A DNA stretch of 64,000 nt from Pseudonocardia petroleophila (GTDB lineage Bacteria > Actinomycetota > Actinomycetes > Mycobacteriales > Pseudonocardiaceae), in contig NZ_CP060131.1 in NCBI RefSeq assembly GCF_014235185.1, positions 6,145,501-6,209,500 of the forward strand. Direction: 5' to 3'. The first letter of the stretch is position 1. Each line of letters starts with the position of its first letter. The notes beneath the pieces are model-generated. The model was not told the origin of the DNA and made no database searches. It saw nothing but the letters and a program-made list of their open reading frames with translations. Shown one piece after another: positions 4,601 through 30,997 of the stretch. The position numbers and the translations under genes were made by a program.

Positions 4601-4960
4601 CGCCTGCCCTCCGGCCGGTTCGCCATCGTCGACTACAAGACCAACTGGCTCGGCGCCCCCGGCGAGCCGCTGACGGCCGCGCACTACACCCCGGCGCGGC
4701 TGGCGGTGGCGATGCGCGGGGCCCACTACCCGCTGCAGGCGCTGCTCTACGGCGTCGCGCTGCACCGCTACCTGCGGTGGCGGCTGCCCGGCTACGACCC
4801 GGGGCGCCACCTCGGCGGGGTGCTCTACCTGTTCGTCCGCGGGATGTGCGGTCCCGCCACGCCGGTCGTCGACGGCACGGCCTGCGGGGTGTTCGGCTGG
4901 GCTCCCCCGCCCGCGCTCACCGTCGAGCTGTCGGCGCTGCTGGAGCGGGGGGCGCCGTGA
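1658..4960 (+). CDS. recB: Exodeoxyribonuclease V beta chain RecB (helicase-nuclease)
   Basis: 1100-residue SF1A 3'-5' helicase with C-terminal nuclease, the catalytic core of RecBCD for double-strand break processing in the cytoplasm. Walker A ASAGTGKT lies at residues 25-32 and Walker B VLVDEFQDTD near 265. UvrD-type motifs follow (GDPKQAIYAFRGAD, then VHRSKGLEFPVV). The nuclease motif GSIDAVL...AIVDYKTNW near residues 975-998 keeps the metal-binding Asp residues and the Lys, so both activities look intact. The GTG start overlaps the recC stop, and the stop overlaps the recD GTG (GTGA both times). Length is normal for the family. Confidence 0.96.
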   Translation: MTAVLAPSAFEVTGPLPTGTTVLEASAGTGKTFTIAALAARYVAEGRATLPELMLVTFGREATTELRERVRDRLVTAQRGLADPVAARAGDDEVLALLADAPPGEIAARRARLTRALAGFDAATIATTHQFCQQMLAGLGVAGDTDPGAEFVESIDDLISEVVDDFYVRKYGARGAGNPAFGRAEAGKLARAAVLDGQARLEPAHAPDGSPAQVRHRFATAVRGEVARRKRERRLYTYDDMLTRLSAALQDADGTAARRLRSRYGVVLVDEFQDTDPVQWHILRTAFHGHTTLVLIGDPKQAIYAFRGADVVSYLDATTAADRHATLARNWRSDAPLLHALDTLFDGAALGDDRIRVHTVEAAHPAPRLAGAPVDTPVRIRVLARDGLPQSGRRLALAPPARARVARDCAAEIAALLASPARLDGEPVQPGDVAVLVRTNEQASVVRAALARVGVPAVSSGTASVFGTPVAKEWLTLLEALEQPRAFRVRAAALTCFVGVTAAQLCSEGADDLLDHLGGTLRDWAAVLHRGGMAALLEAVTGTELPERILGTTDGERTLTDLRHVAQSLHAAATAQHLGPSALVDWLRHRIADAATDVGSERSRRLESDAAAVQIITVHRSKGLEFPVVHVPFAWDRYVGDPPFPLLHDERGARVLDVGGPTGESWAAHCDRHRAEEAGEDLRLLYVALTRARSQVVTWWVPATTVGSSPLHRVLFGRGSGGTLAESYKVPADPIALHALAALESSTIAVEAVGPPADPVFVPAERSAGEPAVAAFDRVLDTAWRRTSYTALTATAGHHAPTALTEPDEAGTDDEPELEPVDGATGPADPSPMAALPLGAAFGTLVHAVFESADLTAPDLAAELTAHAAEQLAFRPIAGLDAAALGSALLPAVQTPLGALADGLRLADVAPRDRLAELDFELPLAGGDDATGPPLTLDALVPLLRTHLPPADPLHAYADDLAALEPSPLRGYLTGSIDAVLRLPSGRFAIVDYKTNWLGAPGEPLTAAHYTPARLAVAMRGAHYPLQALLYGVALHRYLRWRLPGYDPGRHLGGVLYLFVRGMCGPATPVVDGTACGVFGWAPPPALTVELSALLERGAP

Positions 4961-6771
4961 CCGCTCCCGTGCTCCCCGAGGTCGACGTCCACGACGCCCG
5001 GTTCGTGCTCGGCGCGTCCGGCCTGCTGGCGGGCTTCAACGCGGCCGGGGTCCTCGACGCCGCCGACGTGCACACCGCCGAACGGGTCGGCGGCCTCGGC
5101 GGCGAGCCCGACGAGACCGTGCTGCTCGCGCTCGCGCTCGCCGTGCGCGCGGTCCGGCTCGGGTCGGTCTGCGTCGACCTCGCGGCGGCCGACCGCACGG
5201 TGCTCGGCGAGGGCGACGAGCTCGTCGACGTCTCCGCACTGCCCTGGCCCGATCCCGGCCCGTGGCACGACGCCTGCCTGCGCAGCCCGCTCGTGGCCGA
5301 CGGCGCCGACGCCCCGGCCGGGCGGCCGCTGCGGATGGTCGCGGGGCAGCTCTACCTGGAGCGGTACTGGCGCGAGGAGGAGCTGGTGCGGCTCTCGCTG
5401 CGCGAACGCGCCGCCGCCGCCCCGCCGCAGCACGACCTCCCGGCGCTCCGGGCCGGGCTCGACGACCTGTTCCCCGACCCCCGCGCGCTGCGCCAGCGCC
5501 AGGCCGCCGCCGTGGCGTCGCTGCGCCGGGTCACCGTGCTCGCCGGCGGGCCCGGCACCGGCAAGACCACGACCGTCGCCAAGCTGCTGGAGCTGCTGCT
5601 CCGCCAGCCCGGTCCGGCGCCGCGGATCGCGCTGGCCGCGCCCACGGGCAAGGCCGCGGCCCGGCTGCAGGAGGCCGTCACCGGGAGCCTGCCCGGCGAG
5701 CTGCGGGGGCGGGTGAGCGAGGCGTCCACGCTGCACCGGCTGCTCGGCTGGCGTCCCGGCGGCGGGTCGGGGGCGTTCCGGCACGACCGCACGCACCGGC
5801 TGCCGTTCGACGTCGTGGTCGTCGACGAGACGTCGATGGTGTCGCTGACGATGATGGCCCGGCTGCTCGACGCCGTGCGCCCGGACGCGCGGCTGGTGCT
5901 GGTCGGCGACCCCGACCAGCTCGCCTCGGTGGAGGCCGGGGCCGTGCTGGGCGACCTCGCGCGCGCCGCCGGGCGCCCCGAGCCCGTCCTCGACGCCCAC
6001 CTCGCCGCGCTCGGCCTGCCCGCCGGGGTCGTGCACGGCGTCGTCACCCTCGACCACACCTGGCGCTTCGACGGCGCGATCGCCGACCTGGCCCGCGCGG
6101 TCCAGCAGGGCGACGCCGACACCGCGCTCGCCGTCCTGCGCCGCGACGACCCGCAGCTCGCGTTCACCGAGAGCACCGACGAGGCGCGGGCCGACGTGGT
6201 CGCCGCCGGGCGGGCGCTGGCCGCGGCCGCGCGGGCGGGCGACGTCGGGGCGGCGGTGGGCGGGCTCGACGCGCACCGGGTGCTGTGCGCGCACCGCCGC
6301 GGGCCCTACGGGGTGGCCCGCTGGACCGCCGACGTCGACCGCTGGCTGGGCCACGGCCGGCCCGGGTCGCGCGAGCTCTGGTATCCCGGACGCGCGGTGC
6401 TGGTCACCACCAACGACTACGACGCGGGGCTGTTCAACGGCGACACCGGCGTCGCGGTGGAGACCCCCGACGGGCTGCGCGTCGCGTTCGCCCGCGGCGG
6501 CCCGCCCACCCTGTTCGCCCCGTCGCGCCTGTCGGAGGTCACCGGGGTGCACGCGATGACGGTGCACCGCGGCCAGGGCAGCCAGTTCCGGCGGGTCACG
6601 GTGGTGCTGCCGCCCGCGGAGTCGCCCCTGCTCACCCGCGAGCTGCTCTACACCGCGGTCACCCGGGCGCGGGAGTTCGTGCGCGTGGTCGGCACGGCCG
6701 ACGCCGTCCGGGCCGCGGTGGAGCGCCCGGTCGCCCGGGCCAGCGGCCTGCGCCACCGCCTCGACGACTGA
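4957..6771 (+). CDS. recD: Exodeoxyribonuclease V alpha chain RecD (5'-3' helicase)
   Basis: 604-residue SF1B helicase subunit of RecBCD. An N-terminal region (about 1-150) precedes Walker A GGPGTGKT at residues 197-204. Walker B VVVVDETSMVS and motif III VLVGDPDQLASVEAG follow. The C-terminal UvrD_C_2-type domain contains AMTVHRGQGSQF and LLYTAVTRAR. The GTG start is inside the GTGA overlap with recB, which decides it over upstream codons. It is the last gene of the operon and converges on the next gene with only 2 nt between stops. All catalytic motifs look intact. Confidence 0.95.
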   Translation: MTAPVLPEVDVHDARFVLGASGLLAGFNAAGVLDAADVHTAERVGGLGGEPDETVLLALALAVRAVRLGSVCVDLAAADRTVLGEGDELVDVSALPWPDPGPWHDACLRSPLVADGADAPAGRPLRMVAGQLYLERYWREEELVRLSLRERAAAAPPQHDLPALRAGLDDLFPDPRALRQRQAAAVASLRRVTVLAGGPGTGKTTTVAKLLELLLRQPGPAPRIALAAPTGKAAARLQEAVTGSLPGELRGRVSEASTLHRLLGWRPGGGSGAFRHDRTHRLPFDVVVVDETSMVSLTMMARLLDAVRPDARLVLVGDPDQLASVEAGAVLGDLARAAGRPEPVLDAHLAALGLPAGVVHGVVTLDHTWRFDGAIADLARAVQQGDADTALAVLRRDDPQLAFTESTDEARADVVAAGRALAAAARAGDVGAAVGGLDAHRVLCAHRRGPYGVARWTADVDRWLGHGRPGSRELWYPGRAVLVTTNDYDAGLFNGDTGVAVETPDGLRVAFARGGPPTLFAPSRLSEVTGVHAMTVHRGQGSQFRRVTVVLPPAESPLLTRELLYTAVTRAREFVRVVGTADAVRAAVERPVARASGLRHRLDD

Positions 6772-7278: not shown

Positions 7279-10200
7279 CTACTCGGGCGCGGTGACGATC
7301 CCGTCCGCGGCCGCCCGCACGTCGGGGTCGGGGTGGGCGCGCAGGGCGTCGACCCGCTGCAGCCAGTCGCCGGTCCAGCCGGTGCGGGGGCCGACCCGGG
7401 CCACCACGGCGACGGCGAGGAGCCCGGCCGCCGGGCCGTCGACTGCGACGAGCACGTCCACCCCGACGAGGGCGTCGGCCGCGGGCCACGCCGCCGTCTC
7501 CAGCGCCGGGCCCACCGCGGCCGCGACCACCGGGCGGTCGGCGACGAGCGCGGCCAGCGCGGTGAGGTCGTCGGCGAGGCCCGGTCCGGGGGCGGCCAGC
7601 ACCGCGAGCAGCCGGGCCGCCGCGGGCAGCGTCGCCGGGTCGGCGGCCAGCAGGGCCGCCACCTCGCGGACCGGGCCGGGATGCCGCCGGGCGACGGCGC
7701 CGCGGGCGGCGAGGCCGGCGACGATCCGGTCCAGCCGCTGCCCGGCCGGGCGGTCGCGCCGCCGCGCGCCGCCGGAGCCCGGCGGGTCGGTCGCGGGGTC
7801 GGTGGTGGCGGCGTCGGCAGCGGGCTCGGCGGCAGCGGGCTGGCCGGAGGTGGGCTGGCCGGAGCCGGGCTGGGCCGGTCCGGTGCCGGTGGCGGCGAGC
7901 AGGGTGGAGACGATCGCGGGGAGGAGGGCGGGGAGCTCCGTCCACACGCCGGGCCGCAGGGCGGTGCCGGCCGCGGCGGACCAGACGGCGGTGGTGCGGA
8001 GGTCGGTGACGGCGTCGTGCAGGGCGTCCCGGGCGCCCGGGTCCCACGGCACCCACCTCCCGAGGGCGTGGAGCGCGGCCCGCGCGACGTCCGGCTCGGG
8101 GTGGGCGGTGATCCGCCGGACCAGCGCGGCGTACCGCGGGCGCAGGGCGGGTGCGGTCCGGCCGGGCACGGCGGCGAGGACGGCGAGCGCGAGGTCCCGC
8201 TCGCCCTCGCCCGCCTGCGCGTACAGGGCGGCGACCCGGTCGTCGCCGAACCACGGGCGCAGCGCGGTCAGCACCGCGATCCGGACGTCGCGGTGCCCGC
8301 CCGGCCACGCCGCGAGCAGGGTGTCGAGGGCGCCCTCGGGCCGGAACGCCTGCTGCCAGCGGACCAGTTCCTTGCGCGCGGTGACCGTCGCCGCCGACGC
8401 CGGGCCGGGCAGCAGCACCGCCAGCCGGGCGGGCGGGAGGTCGCGTGCGCAGCGGGCCGCGGCGGGCAGGGCGACCCGGGCGCGGTCGGTGGCGATGCCG
8501 CCCAGCAGCCGCCCGATGCCCGCCTCGGGGTCGGCGGCCCGGCCGAGCCCGGTGAGCGCCGCCTCCGCGACGAGCACGTCGGGATCGGCGAGCAGGTCGT
8601 CGACGGCGGTGGGCGCGAGCTCGGCCAGCAGCCCCGCGACGGCCGCGCGCCGGTGCCGCACCGTCCCGGGATCGGCCAGCGCCCTGCGGAGCAGCCCGCG
8701 GTGGGCCTCGACCTGCCGCGGGCTCCAGCGCCGCAGGTCGCGGGCCGTGAGGTCGGGGAGCCACCAGGCCGCACCGGTGCCGAACCGCCCGCGCAGCCGC
8801 CTCCCCGCCGACTCGAGCACGCGGGCGGGCCGGTGCCGCGCCAGCACGGCCAGCACCGGCGGCAGCGTGATCAGCGACCGGTCACGGGCGACCAGCTCCT
8901 CCGCCCGCGCGAGCCGGGTGCCCGGGGCGTCGAGCCGGGCGGCGACGGCGCGGCGCTGCACGTGGTCGTCGCGGACGGTGGTGGCCTCGGCGACCAGCGC
9001 CTGCAGCTCCGGCAGGTCCCGGGCCCGCCGGCCCAGCCCGGCGACCAGGCCGAGCACCGCCGTCGGCTCGCCGCGGCGCAGCGCCGACCGCAGCCGCGGC
9101 AGCACCCGCGCGACGACGGCGCGCTCCCGGCCGCGCGGCAGGGCGAGCAGGGCGGGGCCCAGCAGAGCGTCGTGGCGCCACGCGCCGAGGCGGTCGGCGG
9201 CGTCGAGGGCCCACGCGGCGACGGCCGACCCGTCCGGCCACGGGTGCCCGAGCAGCCCGAACACGACGTGGTGCAGCGCCGAGCGGGTCGCGCCGGAGGT
9301 GTCGCGGGCGTCGACGGCGGCGGTGACCAGCGCGTCGAGGGCGGGCAGGGCGGCGGGCTCGACCAGCTCGGGACGCACCCGGGCCAGCGCCCCGAGCACC
9401 CGGGCCCGGACCGGGTCCTGCTCGTTCGGGATCCGCCGCAGCCCGGTGAGCACCGCGGTGACCGTCGCGGGGTCACCGGTGGCCGCGGCCGCCCGGACCA
9501 GCAGCTCGTAACCGGTGGCGCGCAGCGACGCGTCGGCGCCGCGGGTGGCCGCCTCCAGCACCGGGCGGGCCTCCGGGAACGGCAGCCACGCGCTCACCCG
9601 CAGCGTCGTGGCCGGGTCGTCGCGGACGAGGGCGAGCATCCGGCGGGCCTCGGTGTGCCGGCGGGCGTGCGGGAGCAGGGCGAGCTCGTCGTCGCCGAGC
9701 AGGTCGAGGCCGCGGTCGCGCCCGGCGTGGGCGAGGTCGTGCACCGCCGCGCGCCGGTGCGGCGCGAGGCCGCGCAACACGTCGAGCAGCAGGCGGTGGC
9801 TCGGGCCGGACGCCCGGAGCAGGGCGCCGAGGTCGGCGTCGGGCAGCGCGGCGAGCCGGGTGCGGGCCGAGCGCCCGAGCGGGGACCGGCCCAGCTGGGC
9901 GACCCGGTCGGGGTCGGCGAGGAGCAGCGCGACCACCCGGGAGCCGTCGACGGCGAGCAGCCGGTGCAGCGCGGCGAGCAGGGCAGGCGGCAGGGGCCCG
10001 GTGAGCAGGCGCTCGGCGAGGTCGAGGACGGCGTCGGGACGCCGTCGCACCAACGCGCCCAGCAGCGGCCCGGCCCCGGCCCACCACACCGCCCGGCGCT
10101 CGGTGCCGCGACCCTCCAGCTCGGCGACCGCGTGCGCGGTCACCGCCTGCGGATGGCGCGCCACCAGCGCCCCCCACCGGCGCACGGCGTGGGCGAGCTC

Positions 10201-10671
10201 CGGCAGCCCGTCCGCGACGACGGGCGGGGAGCACCCGGGCAGCAGCGCCGCCGCGGCCGCGTCGCCGTAGCGGCGGCGGACCGTCGGCAGCAGCGCGTCG
10301 GCGAGGGGCTCGTGCCCGCCGCGGCGCAGCCGGGCCGCGACCCGCGTGCGGTCGGCGAGCGATCCGTGCTCCGCGACCACGGCCAGGGCGTCCGCGGGCA
10401 GGGCGGCGGCGCCCAGCGCGCGGGCCCGGACACCCGGGTGCACCGACCCGGTGGCCGCGGCGAGGTGCGCGGCGTCGCCCGCCGCGACCGCCATCGTGAC
10501 GGCCAGGCCCGCCGCGTGGGCGTCACCGACGCCGAGGTCGGCGAGCAGGCGGGCCCGGTCGGCCGGGTCCAGGGACCGGGCGAGTGCGACGACCTGGTGC
10601 GTGCGCTCGTCGGGGTCGAGCCGGTCGACCTCGGCGAGCAGCCGGGCGGCCGTGGGCGCGGCGGGGCTCAC
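7279..10671 (-). CDS. Large HEAT-repeat-like alpha-solenoid protein, last gene of the sbcD-sbcC-nurA chain
   Basis: 1130-residue protein of almost entirely helical, Leu/Ala/Arg-rich sequence with many degenerate HEAT-type helix pairs, for example RDVRIAVLTALRPWFGDDRV and EPDVARAALHALGRW. A low-complexity Gly/Pro/Ala linker sits at about residues 920-975. No enzymatic motif, signal peptide or membrane segment is seen. The GTG start at 10671 overlaps the stop of the nurA-like gene (GTGA); a longer upstream reading would run deep into that gene and looks non-native. Translational coupling to nurA/sbcC/sbcD suggests a scaffold or DNA/protein-binding role in the same end-processing machine. That role is inference; I do not recognise a named family. 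Confidence 0.8.
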   Translation of the reverse strand: MSPAAPTAARLLAEVDRLDPDERTHQVVALARSLDPADRARLLADLGVGDAHAAGLAVTMAVAAGDAAHLAAATGSVHPGVRARALGAAALPADALAVVAEHGSLADRTRVAARLRRGGHEPLADALLPTVRRRYGDAAAAALLPGCSPPVVADGLPELAHAVRRWGALVARHPQAVTAHAVAELEGRGTERRAVWWAGAGPLLGALVRRRPDAVLDLAERLLTGPLPPALLAALHRLLAVDGSRVVALLLADPDRVAQLGRSPLGRSARTRLAALPDADLGALLRASGPSHRLLLDVLRGLAPHRRAAVHDLAHAGRDRGLDLLGDDELALLPHARRHTEARRMLALVRDDPATTLRVSAWLPFPEARPVLEAATRGADASLRATGYELLVRAAAATGDPATVTAVLTGLRRIPNEQDPVRARVLGALARVRPELVEPAALPALDALVTAAVDARDTSGATRSALHHVVFGLLGHPWPDGSAVAAWALDAADRLGAWRHDALLGPALLALPRGRERAVVARVLPRLRSALRRGEPTAVLGLVAGLGRRARDLPELQALVAEATTVRDDHVQRRAVAARLDAPGTRLARAEELVARDRSLITLPPVLAVLARHRPARVLESAGRRLRGRFGTGAAWWLPDLTARDLRRWSPRQVEAHRGLLRRALADPGTVRHRRAAVAGLLAELAPTAVDDLLADPDVLVAEAALTGLGRAADPEAGIGRLLGGIATDRARVALPAAARCARDLPPARLAVLLPGPASAATVTARKELVRWQQAFRPEGALDTLLAAWPGGHRDVRIAVLTALRPWFGDDRVAALYAQAGEGERDLALAVLAAVPGRTAPALRPRYAALVRRITAHPEPDVARAALHALGRWVPWDPGARDALHDAVTDLRTTAVWSAAAGTALRPGVWTELPALLPAIVSTLLAATGTGPAQPGSGQPTSGQPAAAEPAADAATTDPATDPPGSGGARRRDRPAGQRLDRIVAGLAARGAVARRHPGPVREVAALLAADPATLPAAARLLAVLAAPGPGLADDLTALAALVADRPVVAAAVGPALETAAWPAADALVGVDVLVAVDGPAAGLLAVAVVARVGPRTGWTGDWLQRVDALRAHPDPDVRAAADGIVTAPE

Positions 10672-11645
10672 GCCGGGACCGGGACGCCCGCCGCCCGGCG
10701 CAGTGCGCGGTAGAGCAGCGCGGGCTCGCCCAGGCGGCGGCGCAGCGCGCGCTCCAGCCCGGCGATCGGGTAGAGGTTCTGCGGCGCCCGGGAGTCCTTG
10801 TAGGCGACGGAGGCGAACCGCGGGAGCGTCACCTGGCTGAGGTCGGCCAGCGCGACCACCAGCTCGGCGGGCAGCTCGCCGCCGCACTCGATCCGCACGA
10901 TCCCCGCCCACGGGGCGCCCGGCGGGCCGGGCAGCCGCAGGTACCAGGTGTGGCGGTGCAGCGCGCGGTCGCTCTCGGGCTGCTCGAGGCGGAACACCGG
11001 GGTGCGCCGTCCGGGGCCCAGCGCGGCGACGACGCCGTTGAGGTCGGCCGGCAGGTAGGTGCGCGCGTGCGTCTTGACCAGGCCGAGCGCGCGCGGCAGG
11101 TGCAGCCGGCCCAGCGCCCCGTCGACGACGACCAGGTCGTCGTCGTCGCCGTGCTCATCGCGCACGCCCGAGGCGACGAGGAACTCGGTCTCCTGCATCC
11201 GCGTCTGCACCGCGACGCTGAGCGCGGTGCCCGGGTCCTCCCCCGGGCGGCCGGACTCGACGCGCGTGCAGGAGTAGGTGCCCGCCGTCGTGACGACGTC
11301 GACGCCGTCGGCCGAGCTCGTGACCAGGCTGCGCCGGACGTCGGCGCGGACCAGGTGCGCGCCCTCGTCGGGGCAGCAGCACACGACGCCCGCGGCGTAG
11401 GAGGCGCACAGCGCGGGCGAGGCGACGCCCCCGCCCTCGTCGACCCAGACCTGCGCGTCGGTGCGCCGGACCCCGTCGACGAACAGCACCCGCGACGGCG
11501 CGAGCAGGCCGACCTGCGGGTCGATCGGCCCCCACTGCTCGACGGGCCGCTCCAGCCCGACCACGGCCTCGACCCGCGACGGCTCCAGGTCGGTGCCGAC
11601 GCTCGTGCCGTACGAGGGGTCCCAGGGATCGACGGTGAATCTCAC
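10668..11645 (-). CDS. nurA: NurA-domain nuclease-like protein
   Basis: 325 residues with the layout of NurA, the 5'-3' nuclease partner of HerA in archaea and some bacteria. Motif I is VLFVDGVR (Asp57), an acidic segment RMQETEF lies at 150-156, then LVVVDGALG (Asp175), then LGLVKTH (Lys191), and near the C-terminus NLYPIAGLERAL (about 290-301). The His that usually closes the last motif is not evident, so catalysis may be altered. The GTG start overlaps the sbcC stop and its stop overlaps the HEAT gene start. A HerA-type ATPase sits 5.4 kb upstream on the same strand, supporting the call. A family search would be decisive. Confidence 0.78.
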   Translation of the reverse strand: MRFTVDPWDPSYGTSVGTDLEPSRVEAVVGLERPVEQWGPIDPQVGLLAPSRVLFVDGVRRTDAQVWVDEGGGVASPALCASYAAGVVCCCPDEGAHLVRADVRRSLVTSSADGVDVVTTAGTYSCTRVESGRPGEDPGTALSVAVQTRMQETEFLVASGVRDEHGDDDDLVVVDGALGRLHLPRALGLVKTHARTYLPADLNGVVAALGPGRRTPVFRLEQPESDRALHRHTWYLRLPGPPGAPWAGIVRIECGGELPAELVVALADLSQVTLPRFASVAYKDSRAPQNLYPIAGLERALRRRLGEPALLYRALRRAAGVPVPA

Positions 11646-14600
11646 AGGTTCTCCCTCGTGACCGACGACGTCCGCTGGTCGCGCGCCACCCGGAACCGCA
11701 CCGGCACCCGCTCGGCCAGCGCCGGGACGTGCGTGACGACCCCGACCATCCGGTCGCCGCGGGCCGCGAGGTTCTCCAGGGTGCTCGCGACGACCTCCAG
11801 GTTGGCCTCGTCGAGGGTGCCGAACCCCTCGTCGAGGAAGATCGACTCCAGCCGGGCGGCCCCGCGGGCCGCGAGCCCGGACATCTGCGCGGACAGGGCG
11901 AGTGCGAGCGCGAGGCTGGCCTGGAACGTCTCCCCGCCGGACAGCGTCTTGACCGGGCGCTTCGCGTCGGCGTCGGCGTGGTCGACGACCAGGAACTCCC
12001 CGTTGTCGTGGGTGAGCGCGAACTGGCCGCCGGACAGCTCCGCGAGGCTGGTGGACGCGTCGGCCACCAGCGCGTCGAGGGCCGAGGCCACCAGCCAGCG
12101 GGGGAAGCCGTCGGAGCGCAGGAGGCCGCCGAGCATCTTCGCGACCTGCTGCGACTCCTCGGCGGCGTCGCGGTCGGCGCCGATCCGCGCCGCGGTGGCG
12201 CGGCGCTCGGCCAGGCGGGCGTGCGCACCCCGGGCCCGCTCGACGGCCGCGGCCACCGCGGGCCGGGCGGCCGCAGCGTCGACCGAGGGCCCGGTCCCGG
12301 CCTCCGCGCGCTCCCGCGGCCGCGCGGGACCCGGGTCGGTGCGCGAGGCGTCGGGCCGGGCGGGCGGCAGGTCCAGGTCGTGGGCGGCGAGGTCGTCGAC
12401 GAGGGCGCGCACCGCGGCGTCGCGCGCCTCCCGGGCCGACCGGGCGGCGGCGTCGGCCGCGGCCCAGGCGGTGCGCCGCTCGGCCGCCGCGCCGCTCGCC
12501 CACCCGGCGAGGGCGTCCCAGGCCGCGCGCAGGTCGTCGCCGGTGACGGCGGGGGCCCCGAGCGGCACCAGCGGGTCGCGCGCCGCGCGCAGCGCCGCCC
12601 AGGCCGCCCCGACCTCGTCGGCCACCTGCGCCGCGTCGCGCTCCGCCGCGCGCAGGGCGGTGCGGGCGGAGCGCAGGGCCGCGTCGGAGGTGCGCGCGGC
12701 GTCCTCCAGGGCCGTGCGCCGCTCCAGGGCGCGGGCGGCGTCGGCGTCGGACGGGGCGCCGTCCAGCGCGGTGCGCAGCTCGCCGAGGCGCGCCTGCACC
12801 GCGTCGACGGCGCCGCGCGCCTCCTGCTCGGCGCGCGCGGCGGCGGTCTCCTCGTCCCGGCGCTCGGTGGCAGCGCGGTCGGCCGCGTGCAGCGCGCTCC
12901 CGGCGGCGTCGGACTCGCCGTCGGCGGCGGCCACGGCGGCCCGGGCCGCGGTCAGTGCGCCGTCGCGGGCTGCGGCCTGCTCCGCCGCCCACCCGACGAG
13001 CGCGGTCCAGCCGGCCAGCACGTCGTCGTCGGGCACGGCGGGCGCCCCGAACGGCACCAGCGGGTCGCGGGCCGTGCGCAGCGCGGCGGCGGCGTCCTGG
13101 GTGTCGGCCCGCACGGCGTCGACCTCGCGGGCCTCGGCCTCCCGCGCCCGCCGCGCGGCGCGGACGGCGGTGTCGGCCTCGCGGGCCGCGCGTTCGGCCT
13201 CGTCGAGGCCCGCGAGCCGGCGTTCGACGGTGGCGGCGTCGGGTTCGGGCCGCAGCCGGTGCAGCGCGGCGTCGAGCCGGTCGGTCTCGGCCGCCGCCCG
13301 CGCCAGCGCCGCTGACGCGGCGGCCTCCGCGGCGCGCGCGGCGTCGAGCGCGACCGCCGCGTCGGCGACGGCCTGCTCGGCTCCCGCGTCGGCGGGGACG
13401 GCGGCCGGGGGCAGCGCCGCCACGGCCTGCTCGCACACCGGGCACGCCTGCCCCACCACGAGCGCCGGGCGCAGGGCGGCGGCGAGGTCGGCGCGCTGGC
13501 CCGCGGCCCGGCGGGCCTCGGCGTGGTCGAGGGCGTGCCGGGCCGCCCGCACCTGCTCCGCCGCCGCCGCGACGGCCCGTTCGGCGTCGGCCCGGGCCGC
13601 GAGCGCGGACTCCCGCTCCCCCGTGAGCGACGCCCGGTCGGCGTGCTCGCGGCGCGCCTGCTCCAGCGGGCCGCGGGCGGGGGCAGCGTCGAGGACCTCG
13701 CGGGCCCGGGCGTCGGCCGACTCCGCCGCGGCGAGCGCGGTGTCGGCCTCGGCCAGCGCGGCGACGGCGGCGCTGCGACGGCGACCGAGCGCGTCGAGCC
13801 CGGCGGGGACGGCGAGCGCGCGCAGCCCGTCGCGCTCGGCGACGACCCGACGGACGGTGTCGGCGGCGGCCGCCGCGGCCGCGGTGGCGGCGTCGCGGGC
13901 GGTGCGGGCGGTGTCGAGCGCGGTGCGGGCGTCGGCGGCGTCGCGGGCGGCGGTGTCGTAGGCGGCCAGCGCCTTCGCGTGGCGGTCGCGCAGGCCGGGC
14001 AGGTCGCCGGTGAGCGCGGCGAGCTCGGCGTGCCGGGAACGGACGAGCTCCAGCGGCCCGCGCTCGGGGGCCTGCGCCAGCGCGTCGCGGGCGTCGCCGT
14101 CCGCGGCCTCCGCCGACGAGTGGGCCGCGGCGGCGCTCGCGAGCGCGGTGGCCGCGGCGGACCGGCGGGCGTCGAGGTCGGCCAGCCCGTCGGGGGCCGC
14201 CAGTGCCGCGAGGACCGTGCCCTCCGCGCGGATCCGGGCCGCGTCGGCCTCGGCCGCGGCCTGCTCGGCCGCCGCCGCCTCGACCTGCGGCACGAGCGCG
14301 TCGACCCGCCCGGCCAGCGCCACGAGCGCATCGACCCGCTGCTGCGCGGCCGCCTCGGCCTCCGGCGTGGCGTCGGCGTAGCCGGTGAGCTGCTCGGCGA
14401 GGACCTCCGCGCGCTGGCGCTGCGCGGCGGACTCGCTGTTGGCCTCGCGCGCGATCTGGTCGTAGAGCCCCAGCCCGAGGATGCGCACCAGCTTCTCCTG
14501 GCGCTTGCGCGGCTCGGTGTGCAGGAACTCCGCGAAGTCGCCCTGGGGCAGCACGACGCAGGTCGTGAAGTCGCCGAAGGGCAGGCCGAGCAGCTCCTCC

Positions 14601-15010
14601 ACCGCCGCGGTGACGCCCCCGGCGCCGTCGGCGAGCGGGTCGGTCTCCTCGTCGACGCCCGCCGTGCCCGCCGGGTCGCGCAGCCGTTCCAGCCGGGCCG
14701 AGCGCACCGACACCGACCCCGACGCGGCCCGCCGCAGCTCGCGCGCGGCGACGTAGCGCGCCCCGCCGACGTCGAACACGAGCTTGACGGTGCCCCGGCC
14801 GGCCGTCGGCGCGAGCGCGAGCGACACCGTGCGCTGGTTGTCCCAGCGCGGCACCGAGCCGTAGAGGGCGAAGGTGATCGCGTCGATGATCGTGGACTTG
14901 CCCGAGCCGGTGGGCCCGACCAGCGCGAAGTACTCCGCGCCCGTGAAGTCGACGACCGTGCGCTCGCGGAACGAGGCGAACCCGTCGAGCTCCAGCAGGA
15001 CCGGCCTCAC
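11642..15010 (-). CDS. sbcC: Exonuclease SbcC (Rad50-like SMC ATPase)
   Basis: 1122-residue ATPase subunit of the SbcCD (Mre11-Rad50) nuclease, which opens hairpins and processes DNA ends. Walker A GPTGSGKS is at residues 32-39, followed by a Q-loop region (VVLPQGDFAEFL). Two very long Ala/Arg/Glu-rich coiled-coil arms flank the zinc hook CPVC near 522-525. The signature motif LSGGETFQASLALALALS is near 1021, with Walker B and D-loop IFLDEGFGTLDE near 1053. It starts at GTG inside a GTGA overlap with sbcD and ends in a GTGA overlap with the nurA-like gene. Complete and apparently functional. Confidence 0.96.
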   Translation of the reverse strand: MRPVLLELDGFASFRERTVVDFTGAEYFALVGPTGSGKSTIIDAITFALYGSVPRWDNQRTVSLALAPTAGRGTVKLVFDVGGARYVAARELRRAASGSVSVRSARLERLRDPAGTAGVDEETDPLADGAGGVTAAVEELLGLPFGDFTTCVVLPQGDFAEFLHTEPRKRQEKLVRILGLGLYDQIAREANSESAAQRQRAEVLAEQLTGYADATPEAEAAAQQRVDALVALAGRVDALVPQVEAAAAEQAAAEADAARIRAEGTVLAALAAPDGLADLDARRSAAATALASAAAAHSSAEAADGDARDALAQAPERGPLELVRSRHAELAALTGDLPGLRDRHAKALAAYDTAARDAADARTALDTARTARDAATAAAAAAADTVRRVVAERDGLRALAVPAGLDALGRRRSAAVAALAEADTALAAAESADARAREVLDAAPARGPLEQARREHADRASLTGERESALAARADAERAVAAAAEQVRAARHALDHAEARRAAGQRADLAAALRPALVVGQACPVCEQAVAALPPAAVPADAGAEQAVADAAVALDAARAAEAAASAALARAAAETDRLDAALHRLRPEPDAATVERRLAGLDEAERAAREADTAVRAARRAREAEAREVDAVRADTQDAAAALRTARDPLVPFGAPAVPDDDVLAGWTALVGWAAEQAAARDGALTAARAAVAAADGESDAAGSALHAADRAATERRDEETAAARAEQEARGAVDAVQARLGELRTALDGAPSDADAARALERRTALEDAARTSDAALRSARTALRAAERDAAQVADEVGAAWAALRAARDPLVPLGAPAVTGDDLRAAWDALAGWASGAAAERRTAWAAADAAARSAREARDAAVRALVDDLAAHDLDLPPARPDASRTDPGPARPRERAEAGTGPSVDAAAARPAVAAAVERARGAHARLAERRATAARIGADRDAAEESQQVAKMLGGLLRSDGFPRWLVASALDALVADASTSLAELSGGQFALTHDNGEFLVVDHADADAKRPVKTLSGGETFQASLALALALSAQMSGLAARGAARLESIFLDEGFGTLDEANLEVVASTLENLAARGDRMVGVVTHVPALAERVPVRFRVARDQRTSSVTRENL

Positions 15011-16161
15011 GAGGAGATCCGGTCGTGCAGCGTGCGGAACAGCGACTCGACCCGCGGATCGGCGACGCCGCGCGTGCCCAGGTACTCGGAGAACAGCTCG
15101 GCCGGGCTCCGCTCGGCGCCCCCGCCCGACGGCCGCGACGCCTCGGGGACCGCGGCGAAGTCCGGGTCGATCCGCACCTCCAGCGCGTTCGGCAGCACCG
15201 CCGTGACCTCCTCCCGCAGCCCGGCCCGCGCGGGTTCGGTCACCCACACCCTCAGCCAGTCGTCGCCGACGGTGGCAGAGAGCACCGACAGTTCCGCGAC
15301 GGTGCCGCGCACGGTGCGCAGCCGCCGGCCCGACGTGACGGGGATGTCGGTGATCCGCGCCGGCGTCGTCGGGGTGGCCTCGACCAGGCAGACGACGGGC
15401 TCGTTCTCCTGCTCGCCGAAGTCGACGGCGAGCGGCGCACCCGAGTAGTGGACGGGGCACGGGGCCTCCATCCGCTGGCGGCGGTGCAGGTGCCCGAGCG
15501 CGACGTAGTGCGCCTCGATGGGGAAGATGCCGGCGGGAACGGCGTACTCGAAGATCGACTGCGCGGTGCGCTCCCCGCCGCCGAACCGCCCGTTGAGCAC
15601 GGTCAGGTGGGCCATGACCAGGTTGACCGCGCCGTCCTCGAAGCCCGCGGTGAGGGTGCCGAGGACGTCGCGCAGGTTCTGGTCGTAGGCGTTCGTGTTC
15701 TCCCCCGCGGTCTGCGCGACGAGATCGGCCGCGCGCACCGCGTAGCGCTGCGACAGGAACGGCAGGACGGCGACGTTGACCCGCTCCCCGGTGGAGCGGG
15801 CGGTGAAGCCGACGACACCGCCCTTGTCGGCCGTGCGCACCTCCCCCACCAGCGTGATCCCGGCCTCCTGGGCCAGCGGGCGGTAGGCGTCCAGGGCCCG
15901 GGCGTGGTCGTGGTTGCCCGCGATCGCGACGACCTGCGTGCCGTCCCTGGCCAGCCCCATCAGCGTGCGGATGACGAGCTTCTGCGCCTCCGCCGACGGG
16001 GCCGCGGTGTCGTAGAGGTCGCCCGCGACGAGCACGGCGTCGACCTGCTGCTCCCGCGCGATCGTGACGATCTCGCGCAGCACCTGCTCCTGCTCCTCGA
16101 GCCGCGAGTGGCCCTTCAGCGTCTTGCCGACGTGCCAGTCGGCGGTGTGCAGGAAGCGCAT
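15007..16161 (-). CDS. sbcD: Exonuclease SbcD (Mre11-like nuclease)
   Basis: 384-residue calcineurin-like phosphoesterase, the nuclease subunit of SbcCD. Metal-binding motifs occur in the expected order: TADWHVGK at the N-terminus, AGDLYDTA, AGNHDHAR, MAHLTV and GHLHRRQ. The C-terminal capping region is present and the length matches the family. ATG 16161 is the natural start, with the MRFLHTADWH opening typical of SbcD. First gene of the four-gene minus-strand chain; the promoter must lie in the 63-bp gap shared with the divergent VOC gene. Confidence 0.96.
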   Translation of the reverse strand: MRFLHTADWHVGKTLKGHSRLEEQEQVLREIVTIAREQQVDAVLVAGDLYDTAAPSAEAQKLVIRTLMGLARDGTQVVAIAGNHDHARALDAYRPLAQEAGITLVGEVRTADKGGVVGFTARSTGERVNVAVLPFLSQRYAVRAADLVAQTAGENTNAYDQNLRDVLGTLTAGFEDGAVNLVMAHLTVLNGRFGGGERTAQSIFEYAVPAGIFPIEAHYVALGHLHRRQRMEAPCPVHYSGAPLAVDFGEQENEPVVCLVEATPTTPARITDIPVTSGRRLRTVRGTVAELSVLSATVGDDWLRVWVTEPARAGLREEVTAVLPNALEVRIDPDFAAVPEASRPSGGGAERSPAELFSEYLGTRGVADPRVESLFRTLHDRISS

Positions 16162-16224
16162 GGGCCGACGATTCCACCCGACGGCCGACGCGTTCTGTCG
16201 GGGGTCGGTGCCACCCTCTCCGCC

Positions 16225-16995
16225 ATGAGCACACGAGACACCGCATGGCCCGCCGGCACCCCCTGCTGGGTCGACATCGCCGTTCCCGACCTGCCCGCCG
16301 CCACCGCCTTCTACGGCGCGGTGCTGGGGTGGGAGTTCGTCGACACCGGGGAGGAGTTCGGCCACTACACGCTCGCGCAGGTCGGCGGCCGCAGCGCCGC
16401 CGCGATCGCTCCCGTCCAGCCCGGCCAACCGCCGGGGTCCACCCTCTACCTGGCCAGCGACGACGTCGACACCACCGCGAAGCTGGTGACCGAGCACGGC
16501 GGCACGGTCGCCGTCGAGCCGTTCGACGTCCCCGGCACGGGGCGGATGGCCGTCGCGTTCGACGCCGCGGGCGGCGCGTTCGGCATCTGGCAGGCGGCCG
16601 GGATGATCGGGGCCGAGGTCTACAACGAACCCGGTTCGCTGATCTGGGAGGACGCCCGGCTCACCGACGCCGGGGCCGGCCAGGAGTTCTACGCGTCGGT
16701 CTTCGGCTGGACCTACGGCTCCGTCCCCGGCGCCCCCGAGGACTACGCCGTCTTCTCCGTCGGCGGCGAGATCGCGGGCGGCATCGGCGGCATGATGGGC
16801 GCCCCCGAGGGCACCCCGAGCCACTGGCTCGTCTACTTCATGGCCGCCGACGTCGACGCGGCGCTGGCCGCGGTCACCTCGGGCGGCGGCACGGTGCTCA
16901 GCGACGCCGTCGACACCCCCTTCGGCCGCATGGGCGTCGTGGCGGACCCCTTCGGCACCGCGTTCGCCCTGCACGGAGGGATGCCGCAGTCATGA
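16225..16995 (+). CDS. VOC (glyoxalase/bleomycin resistance-like) family protein, two domains
   Basis: 256-residue protein made of two tandem vicinal-oxygen-chelate domains: residues about 10-125 (PCWVDIAVPDLPAATAFYGAVLGWEF onward) and 130-255 (a second FYASVFGWTY unit). Such two-domain proteins are common in actinobacteria and are often labelled hydroxylase-like; the substrate cannot be told from sequence. It lies on the opposite strand between herA and sbcD, so it interrupts the otherwise one-directional DNA-repair block and is probably unrelated to it. No obvious ribosome binding site precedes the ATG. Confidence 0.88.
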   Translation: MSTRDTAWPAGTPCWVDIAVPDLPAATAFYGAVLGWEFVDTGEEFGHYTLAQVGGRSAAAIAPVQPGQPPGSTLYLASDDVDTTAKLVTEHGGTVAVEPFDVPGTGRMAVAFDAAGGAFGIWQAAGMIGAEVYNEPGSLIWEDARLTDAGAGQEFYASVFGWTYGSVPGAPEDYAVFSVGGEIAGGIGGMMGAPEGTPSHWLVYFMAADVDAALAAVTSGGGTVLSDAVDTPFGRMGVVADPFGTAFALHGGMPQS

Positions 16996-17036
16996 CCCCG
17001 GCGCCCGGGCCGGGACGCGGCCGTGCGCGAGCCCCG

Positions 17037-18776
17037 TCAGAACGGGGCGTCGTCGTCGTCCGCGCCCACCGGGAGGCGGGCGAAGGGGTCGCGCGAGGCC
17101 GTCGCGGAGTGGCCGTTCGTCGCCGCCGGGGCGCCCGCGCTCTCCGAGAGCCGGGTCGCCCAGGCCGGGAACGGGAACTCGACGGCCAGCGGCACCGGGA
17201 TCTCGGGCTGCGAGACGAACATCGTGCCCGGCTTCGCCAGCACCGCGCGGGCCCGCTGCGACGGCGGGAGGAAGCCGTACTCGGGGCGCCCGGCCTCGGC
17301 GGGGTCGAGCCGCCCCACCACCTTGATCGAGGAGTTCGACACGATCCGCCGCTCCACCTCCGACGCGGTCTGCTGCGCGCCGATGAGGATGATGCCCAGC
17401 GAGCGGCCGCGCTCGGCGATGTCGAGGAGCACCTCCTTGATCGGCGACGACCCCTCGCGCGGCGCGTACTTGTTCAGCTCGTCGATCATGGTGAACAGCA
17501 GCCCTGCCGACCCGGCCTGCTCCTTGCGCGCGGTCTCCGCGGCCAGCACCACGCCGACGACGAACCGCTGGGCGCGTTCCGGGAGGTTGTGCAGGTCCAC
17601 GACCGTGACCTGCTGGTTCTCCGTGCTCACCCGCCGCCCGGGCGCATCGGCGAGGTCGCCGCGGACGATCGTGCGCAGCGGCTTGAGCGAGGAGCGCAGC
17701 CGGCGCAGGAACGCGTTGATCGTGCCGATGCCGGTGACCGGGCCGGCCCAGTCGCGGCGGGCGTCCTCGTCGCCGAGGCGGTCGGCGACGAACTCGACGA
17801 GCGCGTCGTAGCTGCGCAGCGTCTGCCCCTCCACGGTGACGGCGCCGTCGGCGGCCGGGGTGGCGATCCGCCGCAGGCGCGCGGCGACCTGGTGGATGAC
17901 CATCGTGTACTGGTTGCGCTCGTCCTCGGCGTCGGCGAAGACGAACGGCAGCAGCTCGCCGGAGCAGAACTCGGCCAGCGTCCACCAGAACGCGGCCACC
18001 CCGCTGGTGCGGCCCGTGACGTACGGGCGGCCGGACGGGTCGTCGGGCGTCGGCGGGGCGAAGAACCCGGCGGAGGAGAACGGCGAGGCGGGCAGGTCGA
18101 GGCGGGCGTAGCGGGCGCGCTGCTCGTCGTCGAGCTTGGCGTTGGCGTGGTCGAGGAACAGCAGGTCCTCGCCCTTCACGCTGAACACCAGCGCCTTCGC
18201 GTTCACCGCGCGCCGCCCGAGCACCCCGGACCGGAAGATCGAGTAGAGCAGGAACAGCGCGAAGCTGGTCTTCGTCGCCACCCCGGAGATGCCGCTGATC
18301 GAGACGTGCCCGCCGCGCGTGCCGTCGAGGAACTCCAGGTTGACGTAGATCGGCTCGCCGTCGCGGCCGAGCCCGACGGGCACCTTGAGGTCCATCTTGT
18401 CGAAGTACAGCGCCTGCGCGCGCTCCAGCCCGGTCGCGCGGCGGACGAGCGACCCGGGCATCGGCGGCACGTAGACCTCGGGCTCCACCCGCGTCGTCGT
18501 GACCTCGGCGATCTCCTGCACCTGCGCGGGCAGCACGCCGTCGTCGATGAGGAAGACGTCGGAGCCGTACTGCGCGCCCTCGTGCCGCGCGCGCACCTCG
18601 GTGACCACCCCGGACGTCGTCACGGCCCCGTGCCCGGACACCGACCGCTGCGTGAGCACCACGTCGTCGAGCTGCAGGTACTCCCCCGGCCGCAGCGCCA
18701 CGGAGAACTGCAGCGGCGTGGAGTCCTCGGTGCCGACGACGAGGCCGACGGACGGCGGAGGGGGCGGGGACGACAC
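17037..18776 (-). CDS. herA: HerA-type DNA-translocase ATPase (DUF87-like)
   Basis: 579 residues resembling HerA/FtsK-superfamily hexameric ATPases that pump DNA for NurA and Mre11-Rad50. The N-terminal 130 residues look like the HAS-barrel. The nucleotide-binding loop ISGISGVATKTSF near 155-167 has Thr-Lys-Thr where Gly-Lys-Ser/Thr is usual. Walker B is LLFTMIDELNKYAPRE, followed by ERGRSLGIILIGAQQ, a typical DUF87 sensor segment. The C-terminus is acidic (GADDDDAPF). GTG 18776 has only a weak ribosome binding site, so the start is uncertain by some codons. The nurA-like, sbcC and sbcD genes lie next along the same strand, beyond the VOC gene, which supports a joint role. Confidence 0.85.
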   Translation of the reverse strand: MSSPPPPPSVGLVVGTEDSTPLQFSVALRPGEYLQLDDVVLTQRSVSGHGAVTTSGVVTEVRARHEGAQYGSDVFLIDDGVLPAQVQEIAEVTTTRVEPEVYVPPMPGSLVRRATGLERAQALYFDKMDLKVPVGLGRDGEPIYVNLEFLDGTRGGHVSISGISGVATKTSFALFLLYSIFRSGVLGRRAVNAKALVFSVKGEDLLFLDHANAKLDDEQRARYARLDLPASPFSSAGFFAPPTPDDPSGRPYVTGRTSGVAAFWWTLAEFCSGELLPFVFADAEDERNQYTMVIHQVAARLRRIATPAADGAVTVEGQTLRSYDALVEFVADRLGDEDARRDWAGPVTGIGTINAFLRRLRSSLKPLRTIVRGDLADAPGRRVSTENQQVTVVDLHNLPERAQRFVVGVVLAAETARKEQAGSAGLLFTMIDELNKYAPREGSSPIKEVLLDIAERGRSLGIILIGAQQTASEVERRIVSNSSIKVVGRLDPAEAGRPEYGFLPPSQRARAVLAKPGTMFVSQPEIPVPLAVEFPFPAWATRLSESAGAPAATNGHSATASRDPFARLPVGADDDDAPF

Positions 18777-19870: not shown

Positions 19871-20706
19871 GAGGTGATTCCCTTCAGACGGGTCTTGAAC
19901 GCGCGGGTCTGCGCGGTCAGTGCGGTCTCGGTGGGCAGCCGCTCCATCGACGACGCCCCGTAGAAGCCGTGGCAGTACCGGGTGCGCTGCAGGACGTGCG
20001 CGGCGTCGTCGGGCGAGGAGATCGGGCCGCCGTGGCAGAGCACGAGCACGTCGTCGCGCACCTCCCGCGCGGCCGCCGACCACTCGTCGATCAGCTCCAC
20101 GCAGTCGTCCAGCGACTTCGCCGTGCCCGCCCCGATCGCGCCGCCCGTCGTCAGGCCCATGTGGCAGACGACCAGGTCGGCCCCGGCGCGGGTCATGACG
20201 CGGGCGTCGTCGGCGGAGAAGACGTAGGGGGTGGTGAGCAGGTCGGCGGCGTGCGCGGCGGCGATCATGTCGACCTCCAGCCCGAAGCCCATCCCGGTCT
20301 CCTCCAGGTTGGCCCGGAAGACGCCGTCGATCAGGCCGACGGTCGGGAAGTTCTGGACGCCCGCGAAGCCGAGGTCGGCGAGCTCGCGCAGGAAGCGGTC
20401 GGTGAGCAGGAACGGATCGGTCCCGTTGACGCCCGCGAGCACCGGCGTGTGCGTGACGACCGGCAGCACCTCCGCGGCCATCTCGACGACGATGTCGTTG
20501 GCGTTGCCGTAGGCGAGCAGCCCGGCCAGCGACCCGCGCCCGGCCATCCGGTAGCGGCCCGAGTTGTAGATGACGATGAGGTCGATCCCGCCGGCCTCCT
20601 CGCACTTGGCCGACAGGCCCGTCCCCGCCCCGCCGCCGACGATCGGCTCGCCGCGCGCGGCCATGTCGGCGAATCGCTCGACGAGCTCCTGGCGCCGGAA
20701 CCTCAT
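19867..20706 (-). CDS. Phosphoenolpyruvate hydrolase-like TIM-barrel protein
   Basis: 279 residues matching the PEP_hydrolase-type TIM-barrel family (also the C-terminal half of plant Tm-1). Seen are [49 protein letters not shown] and [14 protein letters not shown] 20706 has a strong AGGAGGTGA ribosome binding site 4-5 nt upstream and overlaps the stop of the UPF0261 gene (ATGA). Its own stop overlaps the SRPBCC start (GTGA). The catalytic activity of bacterial members is not firmly known, so I keep the product name cautious. Confidence 0.9.
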
Positions 20707-21875
20707 GCGGTCACCTCCTGCCACGCGGCCAGCACGGCGTCGGCGAAGCCGGGGTCGTTGACGTGGTGCGGCACCCGCCGCACGATCCCCGGCCGGGTGT
20801 CCTTCTCGAGCGCGGCGAACAGCGCCTCGTCGGCCTCGGGGTCGTGGAACGGCAGACCGGGCGCGTCGAGGGCCGAGACCCCGCCGGTGGGCAGCAGGAA
20901 GACCGCGGGCCCGGTCGTGGCGTTGAGCTTGCGGGCCAGGAACTCCCCGATGGCGACGTTCTCGGCCGCGGTCGTCCGCATGAGCGTGACCTGCGCGTTG
21001 TGCACGTAGAGCAGCCTCCCGTCGAACCGCGCGGGCACGTCGGCCCCGAAGTTGACCATGTCCAGTGCCCCGCACGATCCCACATACGGCACGCCGGTGC
21101 GCGCGACGGCGTCGAGGCGGTCCTCTCCCGCGGCCATGACGCCGCCGACGATCAGGTCGGCGACCTCGGTTGTGGTCAGGTCGAGCACGCCGGTGACCAG
21201 GCCGTCGTCGACGAGCTTCTCCATCGCCCTCCCGCCGGTGCCGGTGGCGTGGAAGACGAGCGCGTCGACGTCGTCGCCCAGGCGCTCGCGGACCTGCGTG
21301 ACGCACGCCGTGGTGACGCCGAACATCGTCAGCGCGACGGCCGGGCGGTCGTCGGCGGCGGGGACCTCGTGGGTGAGCATCCCGGCGAGGGCGTGCGCGG
21401 CGTTGGCGAGGACGCGGCGGGAGATGCGGTTGAGCCCGGCGACGTCGGTGACGGAGTGCAGCATCGCGATGTCCGACGCCCCCACGTACGGCGCGACGTC
21501 GCCCGACGCCACCGTCGACACCATGATCTTCGGGACGCCGACGGGCAGCGCCCGCAGCGCCGGGGTGACGAGCGCGGTGCCGCCGGACCCGCCGAGCCCG
21601 AGCACCCCGCCGACGTCGTCGCGGGTGCCGAGCCAGCGCTCGAACGCCAGCGCCATCGCGGTGACGGCGGTCCCGCGGTCGCCGGTGAACACCGCGTCCG
21701 CCCCGTCGGGGTGGTGGGCGGCGACCTCGGTGGCGGTGACGTCACCCCCGTGCTCGCCGCCGCCCGTGGAGACGTCGACGACCCGCGCAGACACCCCCGC
21801 GGCCCGCAGCAGTCCCGCGACGTGGGCCAGCTCGGGCCCCTTGGTGTCGAGCGTGCCGACGACGTAGGCGATCAC
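20703..21875 (-). CDS. Tm-1-like ATP-binding protein (UPF0261)
   Basis: 390-residue UPF0261 family protein, the bacterial counterpart of the N-terminal half of tomato Tm-1. It opens with [19 protein letters not shown] and contains [52 protein letters not shown] and GALDMVNFG, all typical. The GTG at 21875 is chosen because it puts the conserved TLDTKG motif near the N-terminus, as in the family; the ribosome binding site is weak. Upstream codons would run into the repeat-rich spacer. First gene of a three-gene overlapping operon with the PEP-hydrolase-like and SRPBCC genes. The family binds nucleotides, but its bacterial role is unclear. Confidence 0.9.
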
Positions 21876-21923
21876 CGGACCAGTTGTAGTGCAGTCACCG
21901 CCGCAGCGACACCGCGGACCGGC

Positions 21924-21998
21924 GACCACCGCGCAGACCCCGTGGTCACCACGCAGACCGCCGGCGGTCTGCGCGCCGCTCGGCGGTCTGCGCGGTGG
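21924..21998. repeat. Cluster of inverted CGCAGACC repeats, probable terminator-like structure
   Basis: Four copies of CGCAGACC or its reverse complement lie within 75 bp: 21932-21939, 21952-21959, 21966-21973 and 21985-21992. The inner two form a perfect 22-bp palindrome (21952-21973), and the outer two sit in a 14-bp inverted repeat (21926-21939 with 21985-21998). It covers the last codons and spacer after the ADP-ribosylglycohydrolase gene and could act as its transcription terminator. No U-tract follows. Confidence 0.7.
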
Positions 21999-23618: not shown

Positions 23619-23632
23619 GCCGACCTCCTTCA

Positions 23633-30907: not shown

Positions 30908-30997
30908 CGCCACTCCCCCGTTCGCCGCGGCACGATCACGCGACGCGATCGACTATCACCCCAACGGGTGACAGGCGTCGCGGGTTACGGCCGGATC

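Follow-up and report, generated by a model that had tools for sequence, protein, structure and literature searches.

The window analysed here, a 64,000-nucleotide (nt) stretch of the Pseudonocardia petroleophila genome (assembly GCF_014235185.1, contig NZ_CP060131.1, positions 6,145,501 to 6,209,500 of the forward strand), carries a minus-strand group of genes for candidate DNA-end-processing proteins, herA, sbcD, sbcC and nurA, followed by a gene for a large helical protein that we call HEAT-like (Table 1). The source genome is a single contig of 6,490,139 bases, and its nearest named relative, Pseudonocardia hydrocarbonoxydans, has a HerA that is 96-97% identical to that of the window. As stated in an initial annotation made from the sequence alone, sbcD, sbcC, nurA and the HEAT-like gene form a chain with a GTGA overlap at all three junctions (15007-15010, 11642-11645 and 10668-10671; the sbcD start was taken by eye from an open reading frame (ORF) listing). 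In two sister genomes the nurA/HEAT-like overlap reads ATGA, and one of the two has a 10-nt gap between sbcC and nurA. The annotation had also correctly placed herA upstream on the same strand, but overlooked a VOC/glyoxalase-family gene that stands between herA and sbcD on the plus strand; because this gene intervenes, herA lies outside the overlapping chain in the window. The glyoxalase-family gene is a local insertion and not a member of the module described below.

Table 1. Genes discussed in the text, with their positions in the window
Feature	Coordinates	Strand	Length or model match	Predicted product or remark
herA	18776-17037	minus	579 amino acids (aa), GTG start	Bacterial-type HerA double-stranded DNA (dsDNA) translocase ATPase
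VOC/glyoxalase-family gene	16225-16995	plus	Pfam Glyoxalase E 2e-19	Outside the module
sbcD	16161-15007	minus	384 aa	SbcD/Mre11-type nuclease
sbcC	15010-11642	minus	1122 aa	SbcC/Rad50-type ATPase
nurA	11645-10668	minus	325 aa	Bacterial-type NurA nuclease
HEAT-like gene	10671-7279	minus	1130 aa	All-helical protein; clade-specific neighbour, no fixed part of the module
recC	from 1	plus	TIGR01450 E 1.2e-109	C-terminal part, cut by window start
recB	1658-4960	plus	TIGR00609, above cut-off	
recD	4957-6771	plus	TIGR01447, above cut-off	

Identity of the four proteins

Residues 8-546 of the window HerA align with residues 13-601 of the solved Deinococcus radiodurans HerA (PDB 7f6d_B, E 1.2e-137), covering the HAS-barrel, the RecA core and the C-terminal part. 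Five residues reported to be essential in the Deinococcus protein, K175, T176, D220, D487 and E488 (PMC9960219), align with K169, T170, D204, D432 and E433 of the window protein. Conservation was surveyed in a set of named loci, the best 80 of at least 538 relatives, which lean towards close kin. Walker A (K169/T170), D204, Walker B (D432/E433) and R440 are kept in all 80. The translocation arginines of Deinococcus HerA, R495 and R552, reported to be important as is W8 of its NurA partner (PMC9960219), have counterparts in R440 and R497, the latter being nearly invariant in a 10-row alignment, where it is absent from a divergent copy (L027, described below). By these comparisons HerA is of the Deinococcus type, a putative hexamer with putative ATP-driven DNA translocation.

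NurA matches Deinococcus NurA (7f6d_H) at E 1.4e-25 by sequence. Its AlphaFold model, built from 18 sequences (pLDDT 84.8, with residues 1-17 of low confidence), retrieves another chain of the same entry as the best match in a fold search (7f6d_G, E 5.4e-21), followed by TM1739 (1zup_A, E 2.2e-15) and TdpAB (8wfd_G, E 1.1e-5). Residues W8, D57, E154 and D175 are kept in 55 of 55 named loci; D57 and D175 we take to be catalytic, as in archaeal NurA. W8 is the pin-region tryptophan 8 of Deinococcus NurA, likewise kept in the window protein; bacterial NurA carries this tryptophan beside a pin-like motif that is described as absent from archaeal NurA (PMC9960219). Both window proteins are homologous to those of the Deinococcus HerA-NurA complex (PDB 7f6d; PMC9960219) over nearly their full length and keep its catalytic and translocation residues, and we assign both to the Deinococcus type, with nuclease activity and dimer formation predicted for NurA. 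The two names given in the initial annotation hold by way of the 7f6d chains. The corresponding Pfam models score below cut-off (DUF87/HerA, 11.6 bits against 23.2, E 0.29; NurA, 16.7 bits against a gathering score of 21, E 0.0054), so both proteins escape detection by Pfam alone.

SbcD passes TIGR00619 (196.5 bits, cut-off 77.65, E 6.4e-58), and its metal-site residues D8, H10, D48, N83, H84, H224 and H226 are kept in 74 of 74 named loci. SbcC passes the Pfam models AAA_23, SMC_N and SbcC_Walker_B, and carries a Walker A motif, a CPVC zinc-hook motif and an LSGGE signature; among full-length relatives without stops, Walker A and CPxC are each kept in 56/56 and SGGE in 55/56. The best NCBIfam model for SbcC, TIGR00618 (247 bits, E 3.7e-73), stays below its cut-off of 478.5, a shortfall that the coiled coil may explain. 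The best archaeal models give 55.8 bits for SbcD (Mre11) and 52.1 bits for SbcC (Rad50); with the bacterial models scoring far higher, both proteins are classed as bacterial-type subunits. The description of the set as archaeal in style therefore fits its gene content, but not its subunits, which match bacterial SbcD and SbcC models and a Deinococcus-type HerA and NurA, tryptophan included.

Conservation and distribution of the gene order

Gene order was compared in the named loci, in a relatives sample of 41 genomes (the source genome, 24 of its genus and 16 of its order), in a class sample of 394 genomes (HerA at E <=1e-30) and in a phylum sample of 396 genomes (HerA at E <=1e-20); these four samples overlap (e.g. 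L091 = G005, L100 = G010, L107 = G180). Other classes or deeper kin contributed 79 genomes with HerA, of which 20 were examined at the locus; the profiles used for these 20 and for the gene-order counts were built from the named loci. The gene-order counts that follow are confined to loci in which the sequence extends at least 7-8 kb downstream of herA. Among the named loci, 50 of 54 show herA-sbcD-sbcC-nurA on one strand; so do 15 of 15 loci of the class sample, 16 of 17 of the relatives (the lone exception meets a contig end) and 13 of 17 from Actinomycetota classes other than that of the window. The first of these counts excludes the 26 of the 80 named loci with less than 8 kb downstream, six of which still show the four genes in order. 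Among the four named exceptions, two are contigs already included as G010 and G008, with nurA further on; in L097 no other module gene lies within 10 kb of herA, and L102 is without nurA up to the end of the locus. One of the four exceptions in other classes has the order nurA-herA-sbcD-sbcC (L193, G505). From these neighbourhood counts herA, sbcD, sbcC and nurA are therefore read as a conserved four-gene module, archaeal in its gene content and bacterial in its predicted subunits.

Strong HerA matches (E <1e-240) occur in 23 of the 41 relatives and NurA in 22, with both in 21. The three HerA-only or NurA-only cases are draft contigs, two of which end within 200 nt of the SbcC match, and the third of which includes only 2.4 kb upstream of sbcD. 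A close SbcD (at least 56% identity) is present in exactly the 24 genomes with HerA or NurA, the remaining 17 having a distant SbcD match (29-39%) or none. HerA was detected in 21 of the 394 class genomes and 81 of the 396 phylum genomes. A HerA tree of 85 rows, made by a quick method, clusters families (12 changes, against a minimum of 11 and a shuffled mean of 31.1), the pattern that would be expected under mostly vertical descent, with which transfer is also compatible.

These data also bear on whether the HerA of the window might be an unrelated ATPase that came to lie by accident beside an sbcD-sbcC-nurA chain. Such a view could appeal to the opposite-strand gene between herA and sbcD, and to the gap between these genes in Pseudonocardia, which is often larger, holds varying genes and reaches about 10-11 kb in some genomes. 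The gap is, however, below 300 nt in 51 of the 56 named loci having all four genes in order, HerA co-occurs with NurA, and the protein matches the solved HerA of a HerA-NurA complex. Chance adjacency is refuted by the gene-order survey, and we give the accidental-neighbour explanation next to no credence.

A second, divergent set was observed in one genome (L027, G007:C65, 1941-8885, minus strand), arranged nurA-herA-sbcD-sbcC, with HerA at 41% and NurA at 36% identity. Its GC content is 72.5%, compared with 76.0% at the main G007 locus, and G007 is flagged as 6% contaminated; for these two reasons the L027 set may be foreign.

Clusters of the same four functions are known elsewhere. In thermophilic archaea, herA, mre11, rad50 and nurA form an operon and HerA, Mre11 and Rad50 interact (PMC2288612); the window unites the same functions in one cluster, but with bacterial-type subunits. 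Oceanithermus profundus, in which sbcD and sbcC lie downstream of hepA in the arrangement nurA-hepA-sbcD-sbcC (PMC5448004), shares with the window a bacterial four-gene cluster with bacterial SbcCD, although nurA comes first there and last in the window. The nurA-first order also occurs in L027 (G007), in L193 (G505) and on a cyanobacterial plasmid (L207). Homologues of NurA and HerA have been noted in Cyanobacteria, Actinobacteria and Firmicutes, with D. radiodurans given as the only organism in which they were studied (PMC8708640). A bacterial four-gene cluster and the presence of NurA and HerA in Actinobacteria are thus already published (PMC5448004; PMC8708640). We found no account of the actinobacterial four-gene operon, or of a HEAT-repeat partner of NurA, in the open-access literature, a coverage outside which most subscription papers fall. 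The module itself is well supported and widely conserved; it is ordinary as a kind, under-described in Actinomycetota, and of use in testing a question raised in the literature.

Most work on HerA-NurA in bacteria has left SbcCD aside, and for D. radiodurans a connection with sbcCD was described in 2015 as still awaiting discovery (PMC4663267); in the window the sbcD-sbcC pair is flanked by herA and nurA. The four-gene operon is found in culturable mesophiles (Micromonospora, Salinispora, Amycolatopsis), making the coupling testable by ordinary genetics. The module also falls into an annotation blind spot: on the one annotated actinomycete record examined (L206), HerA is labelled 'ATP-binding protein' and NurA 'hypothetical protein'.

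The HEAT-like gene

Pfam returned no family for the window HEAT-like protein at E up to 5, whereas a homologue that is 42% identical across the first 417 residues matches HEAT_2 with an E value of 0.001, which falls short of the cut-off. The AlphaFold model is all-helical and of low confidence (mean pLDDT 53.8); a fold search with it retrieved CAND1 (E 6.1e-6) and other HEAT solenoids of eukaryotes, with TM-scores of about 0.2 or less, and a sequence search of the PDB gave only matches at E 0.6, to splicing factor 3B. The HEAT-repeat identity proposed in the initial annotation is thus plausible from the homologue and the predicted all-helical fold, although no Pfam family recognises the window protein itself.

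The frame is, on codon-level comparison, a real coding gene under purifying selection. Comparison with two sister genomes gives dN/dS values of 0.41 and 0.38 and an excess of changes at third codon positions. The antisense frame is likewise open in three genomes, so that openness alone leaves the strand undecided, and it is the third-position excess together with homology that decides. The four module genes have dN/dS values of 0.05-0.26 against the same sisters, the HEAT-like gene evolving faster.

Searched for with its first 417 residues, the HEAT-like gene was found in 5 of the 41 relatives, with no match in 18 of the 22 nurA-bearing genomes. It lies directly behind nurA in three of them (the window genome, P. 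hydrocarbonoxydans (G005) and G009), in each case with a 4-nt overlap, and upstream of herA on the same strand in G018, with an opposite-strand sortase-like gene between; G028 has a HEAT-like gene without HerA or NurA. A genus sample of 62 genomes contains it in six, of which four, the close homologues, are all beside the module, at the two positions just described. The two further Pseudonocardia genes are divergent, and neither is near the module within the flanks examined. In the class sample, for which only 4 candidates per genome were scored, the HEAT-like gene was found in 17 of 394 genomes and together with HerA only in the window's own genome, the pair being shared by 0/20 other HerA and 0/16 other HEAT-like genomes. 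None of the 20 other-class loci has a HEAT-like gene near the module, and in Nonomuraea gerenzanensis, which has both, they are about 4.4 Mb apart. A search for a recurrent neighbour of the HEAT-like gene in 11 loci gave 22 pairs at E 1e-12, few of which could be placed outside the HEAT-like gene itself (a glyoxalase-family pair from the window and L204 is among these few), and no recurrent partner. Plasmid records consulted for the surroundings of HEAT-like genes carried no annotated features. Because this distribution departs from that of HerA and NurA, we treat the HEAT-like gene as an independent family, most likely a recent, lineage-specific neighbour of the module.

A five-part machine comprising the products of all five genes had been suggested in the initial annotation. 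With the HEAT-like protein as a fixed fifth part this is rejected, the gene being absent from most nurA-bearing relatives, from the other HerA genomes of the class sample and from the other-class loci; the clustering in relatives that had been predicted applies to herA, sbcD, sbcC and nurA, but does not extend to the HEAT-like gene. A narrower version, in which the HEAT-like protein would serve a HerA-NurA-SbcCD complex as a functional subunit or as a scaffold, at least in this clade, can draw on the overlap with nurA kept in three genomes and on purifying selection on the frame (dN/dS about 0.4). Within the nearest clade, moreover, the gene recurs next to the module, in two different places, which is more than we would expect by chance and is the sole fact that suggests an accessory role there. 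Against even this version stand the 18 nurA-bearing relatives without the gene, the near-complete separation of the two in the class sample, the 20 other-class loci, the occurrences in G028, Nonomuraea gerenzanensis and two more Pseudonocardia apart from the module, and a dN/dS above those of all four genes. We therefore consider a subunit or scaffold role very unlikely.

Proposed function and neighbouring systems

The position of recC-recB-recD just downstream of the module, and convergent with it, was unexpected. Sixteen of the 41 relatives have NurA as well as RecB. In about 10 of these 16 (tallied by eye) the two lie within 7 kb and are convergent; of the rest, three carry both on one contig, at distances of 62 to about 347 kb, and three on different contigs. 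RecB occurs without HerA and NurA in 6 of the 41 genomes and NurA without RecB in another 6, from which RecBCD and the module are independent by presence, yet linked in part of the genus. At a further locus (L171, G000:C1:649500-659500) two adjacent UvrD + PDDEXK_1 proteins are encoded by ORFs of 1336 and 1131 aa, a pair that we take to be AdnAB-like. Judged by their protein families, the source genome holds three end-processing systems, the module, RecBCD and the AdnAB-like pair, and their co-presence raises the question of what purpose each one serves.

We propose that herA-sbcD-sbcC-nurA is probably a conserved bacterial DNA-end-processing module, standing beside RecBCD and the AdnAB-like pair and having no need of its HEAT-like neighbour. 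At the level of sequence this reading builds on the identity of the four proteins, the conservation of their catalytic residues and the conserved gene order, and the four genes are presumably co-transcribed. The most likely working, drawn from known complexes, is that SbcCD, being of the Mre11-Rad50 type, would bind a double-strand end and nick, cut or clean it. The HerA hexamer would then load and pump duplex DNA into the NurA dimer, which would separate the strands and degrade them, giving a 3' single strand for recombination. SbcCD would in this scheme be physically coupled to HerA-NurA, the strand polarity would be the one just given, and repair would be the main purpose. The HEAT-like protein would be translationally coupled to nurA and dispensable for the module.

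Several observations weigh against an end-processing role of this kind. Two other systems, RecBCD and an AdnAB-like pair, are already present in the genome, the distribution of HerA is patchy, and the plus-strand VOC/glyoxalase gene separates herA from sbcD in the window. Of the 17 other-class loci, moreover, two show no other module gene within 10 kb of herA and one is without nurA. Loss of nurA or herA in Deinococcus is reported to lower recombination tenfold with radioresistance kept (PMC5448004), and HerA-NurA of Thermococcus kodakarensis has been argued to be antiviral and not to act in resection (PMC12977600).

The patchy occurrence of HerA (21 of 394 class genomes) and the antiviral reading of an archaeal HerA-NurA would both fit a module used mainly in defence, in which SbcCD would sense DNA ends that are free or unusual and HerA-NurA would destroy the DNA of invading phages or plasmids, like other HerA-nuclease pairs. 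On a Streptomyces linear plasmid (L206, NZ_CP134205.1, 980-23918) the four genes stand beside TIGR02678, TIGR02679, TIGR02680 and DUF2397, presumably a Wadjet set, as well as an ImmA/IrrE peptidase and a restriction endonuclease; the NurA profile identifies the NurA of this plasmid with E 1.6e-140. A cyanobacterial conjugative plasmid (L207, AP018315.1, 8946-15946) carries nurA-herA-sbcD-sbcC, with nurA and herA annotated as hypothetical. The resemblance of the NurA model to TdpAB, whose role we take to be defence, points the same way. As in the module, a HerA-type hexameric ATPase is joined to a nuclease in the Sir2-HerA and HerA-DUF4297 pairs (PMC12977600) and, by the title of entry 8wfd, a HerA-type ATPase to a nuclease in TdpAB, where the partner is a distant NurA-like protein. 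In the anti-phage pairs, however, the partner is Sir2 or DUF4297, and PADLOC did not match the NurA of the window, while its matches to the window HerA are weak or off-family (mad8 E 4.7e-10, HerA E 1e-4). The defence-type flank genes of the Streptomyces plasmid recur in 0 of 80 named loci and its helicase-associated gene in 1, HerA trees follow families, and the neighbours of the module within the genus are recC-recB-recD. We know of no SbcCD in the anti-phage HerA-nuclease pairs or in TdpAB. A mainly defensive role is on balance possible but unlikely.

The end-processing reading can be extended further, to a view that we hold to be rather doubtful. The complete Mre11-Rad50/HerA-NurA cassette would then be an old and widespread unit of Actinomycetota, with wholly bacterial-type subunits, offering a further route beside AdnAB and RecBCD in which SbcCD would load HerA-NurA; one Pseudonocardia clade would have acquired an adaptor with helical repeats by coupling its translation to that of nurA.

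Three other regions of the window deserve mention. A minus-strand ORF of 1829 residues (25424-30913) combines AAA helicase-type domains with REase_MTES_1575 (E 1.4e-24), and is possibly a defence or repair protein. On the plus strand, 24304-25419 encodes a NYN nuclease domain and an OST-HTH/LOTUS domain in one protein, and a minus-strand gene for an ARPP-1 family protein (22884-23633, E 2.2e-46) lies beside a UPF0261 gene at 20703-21929.

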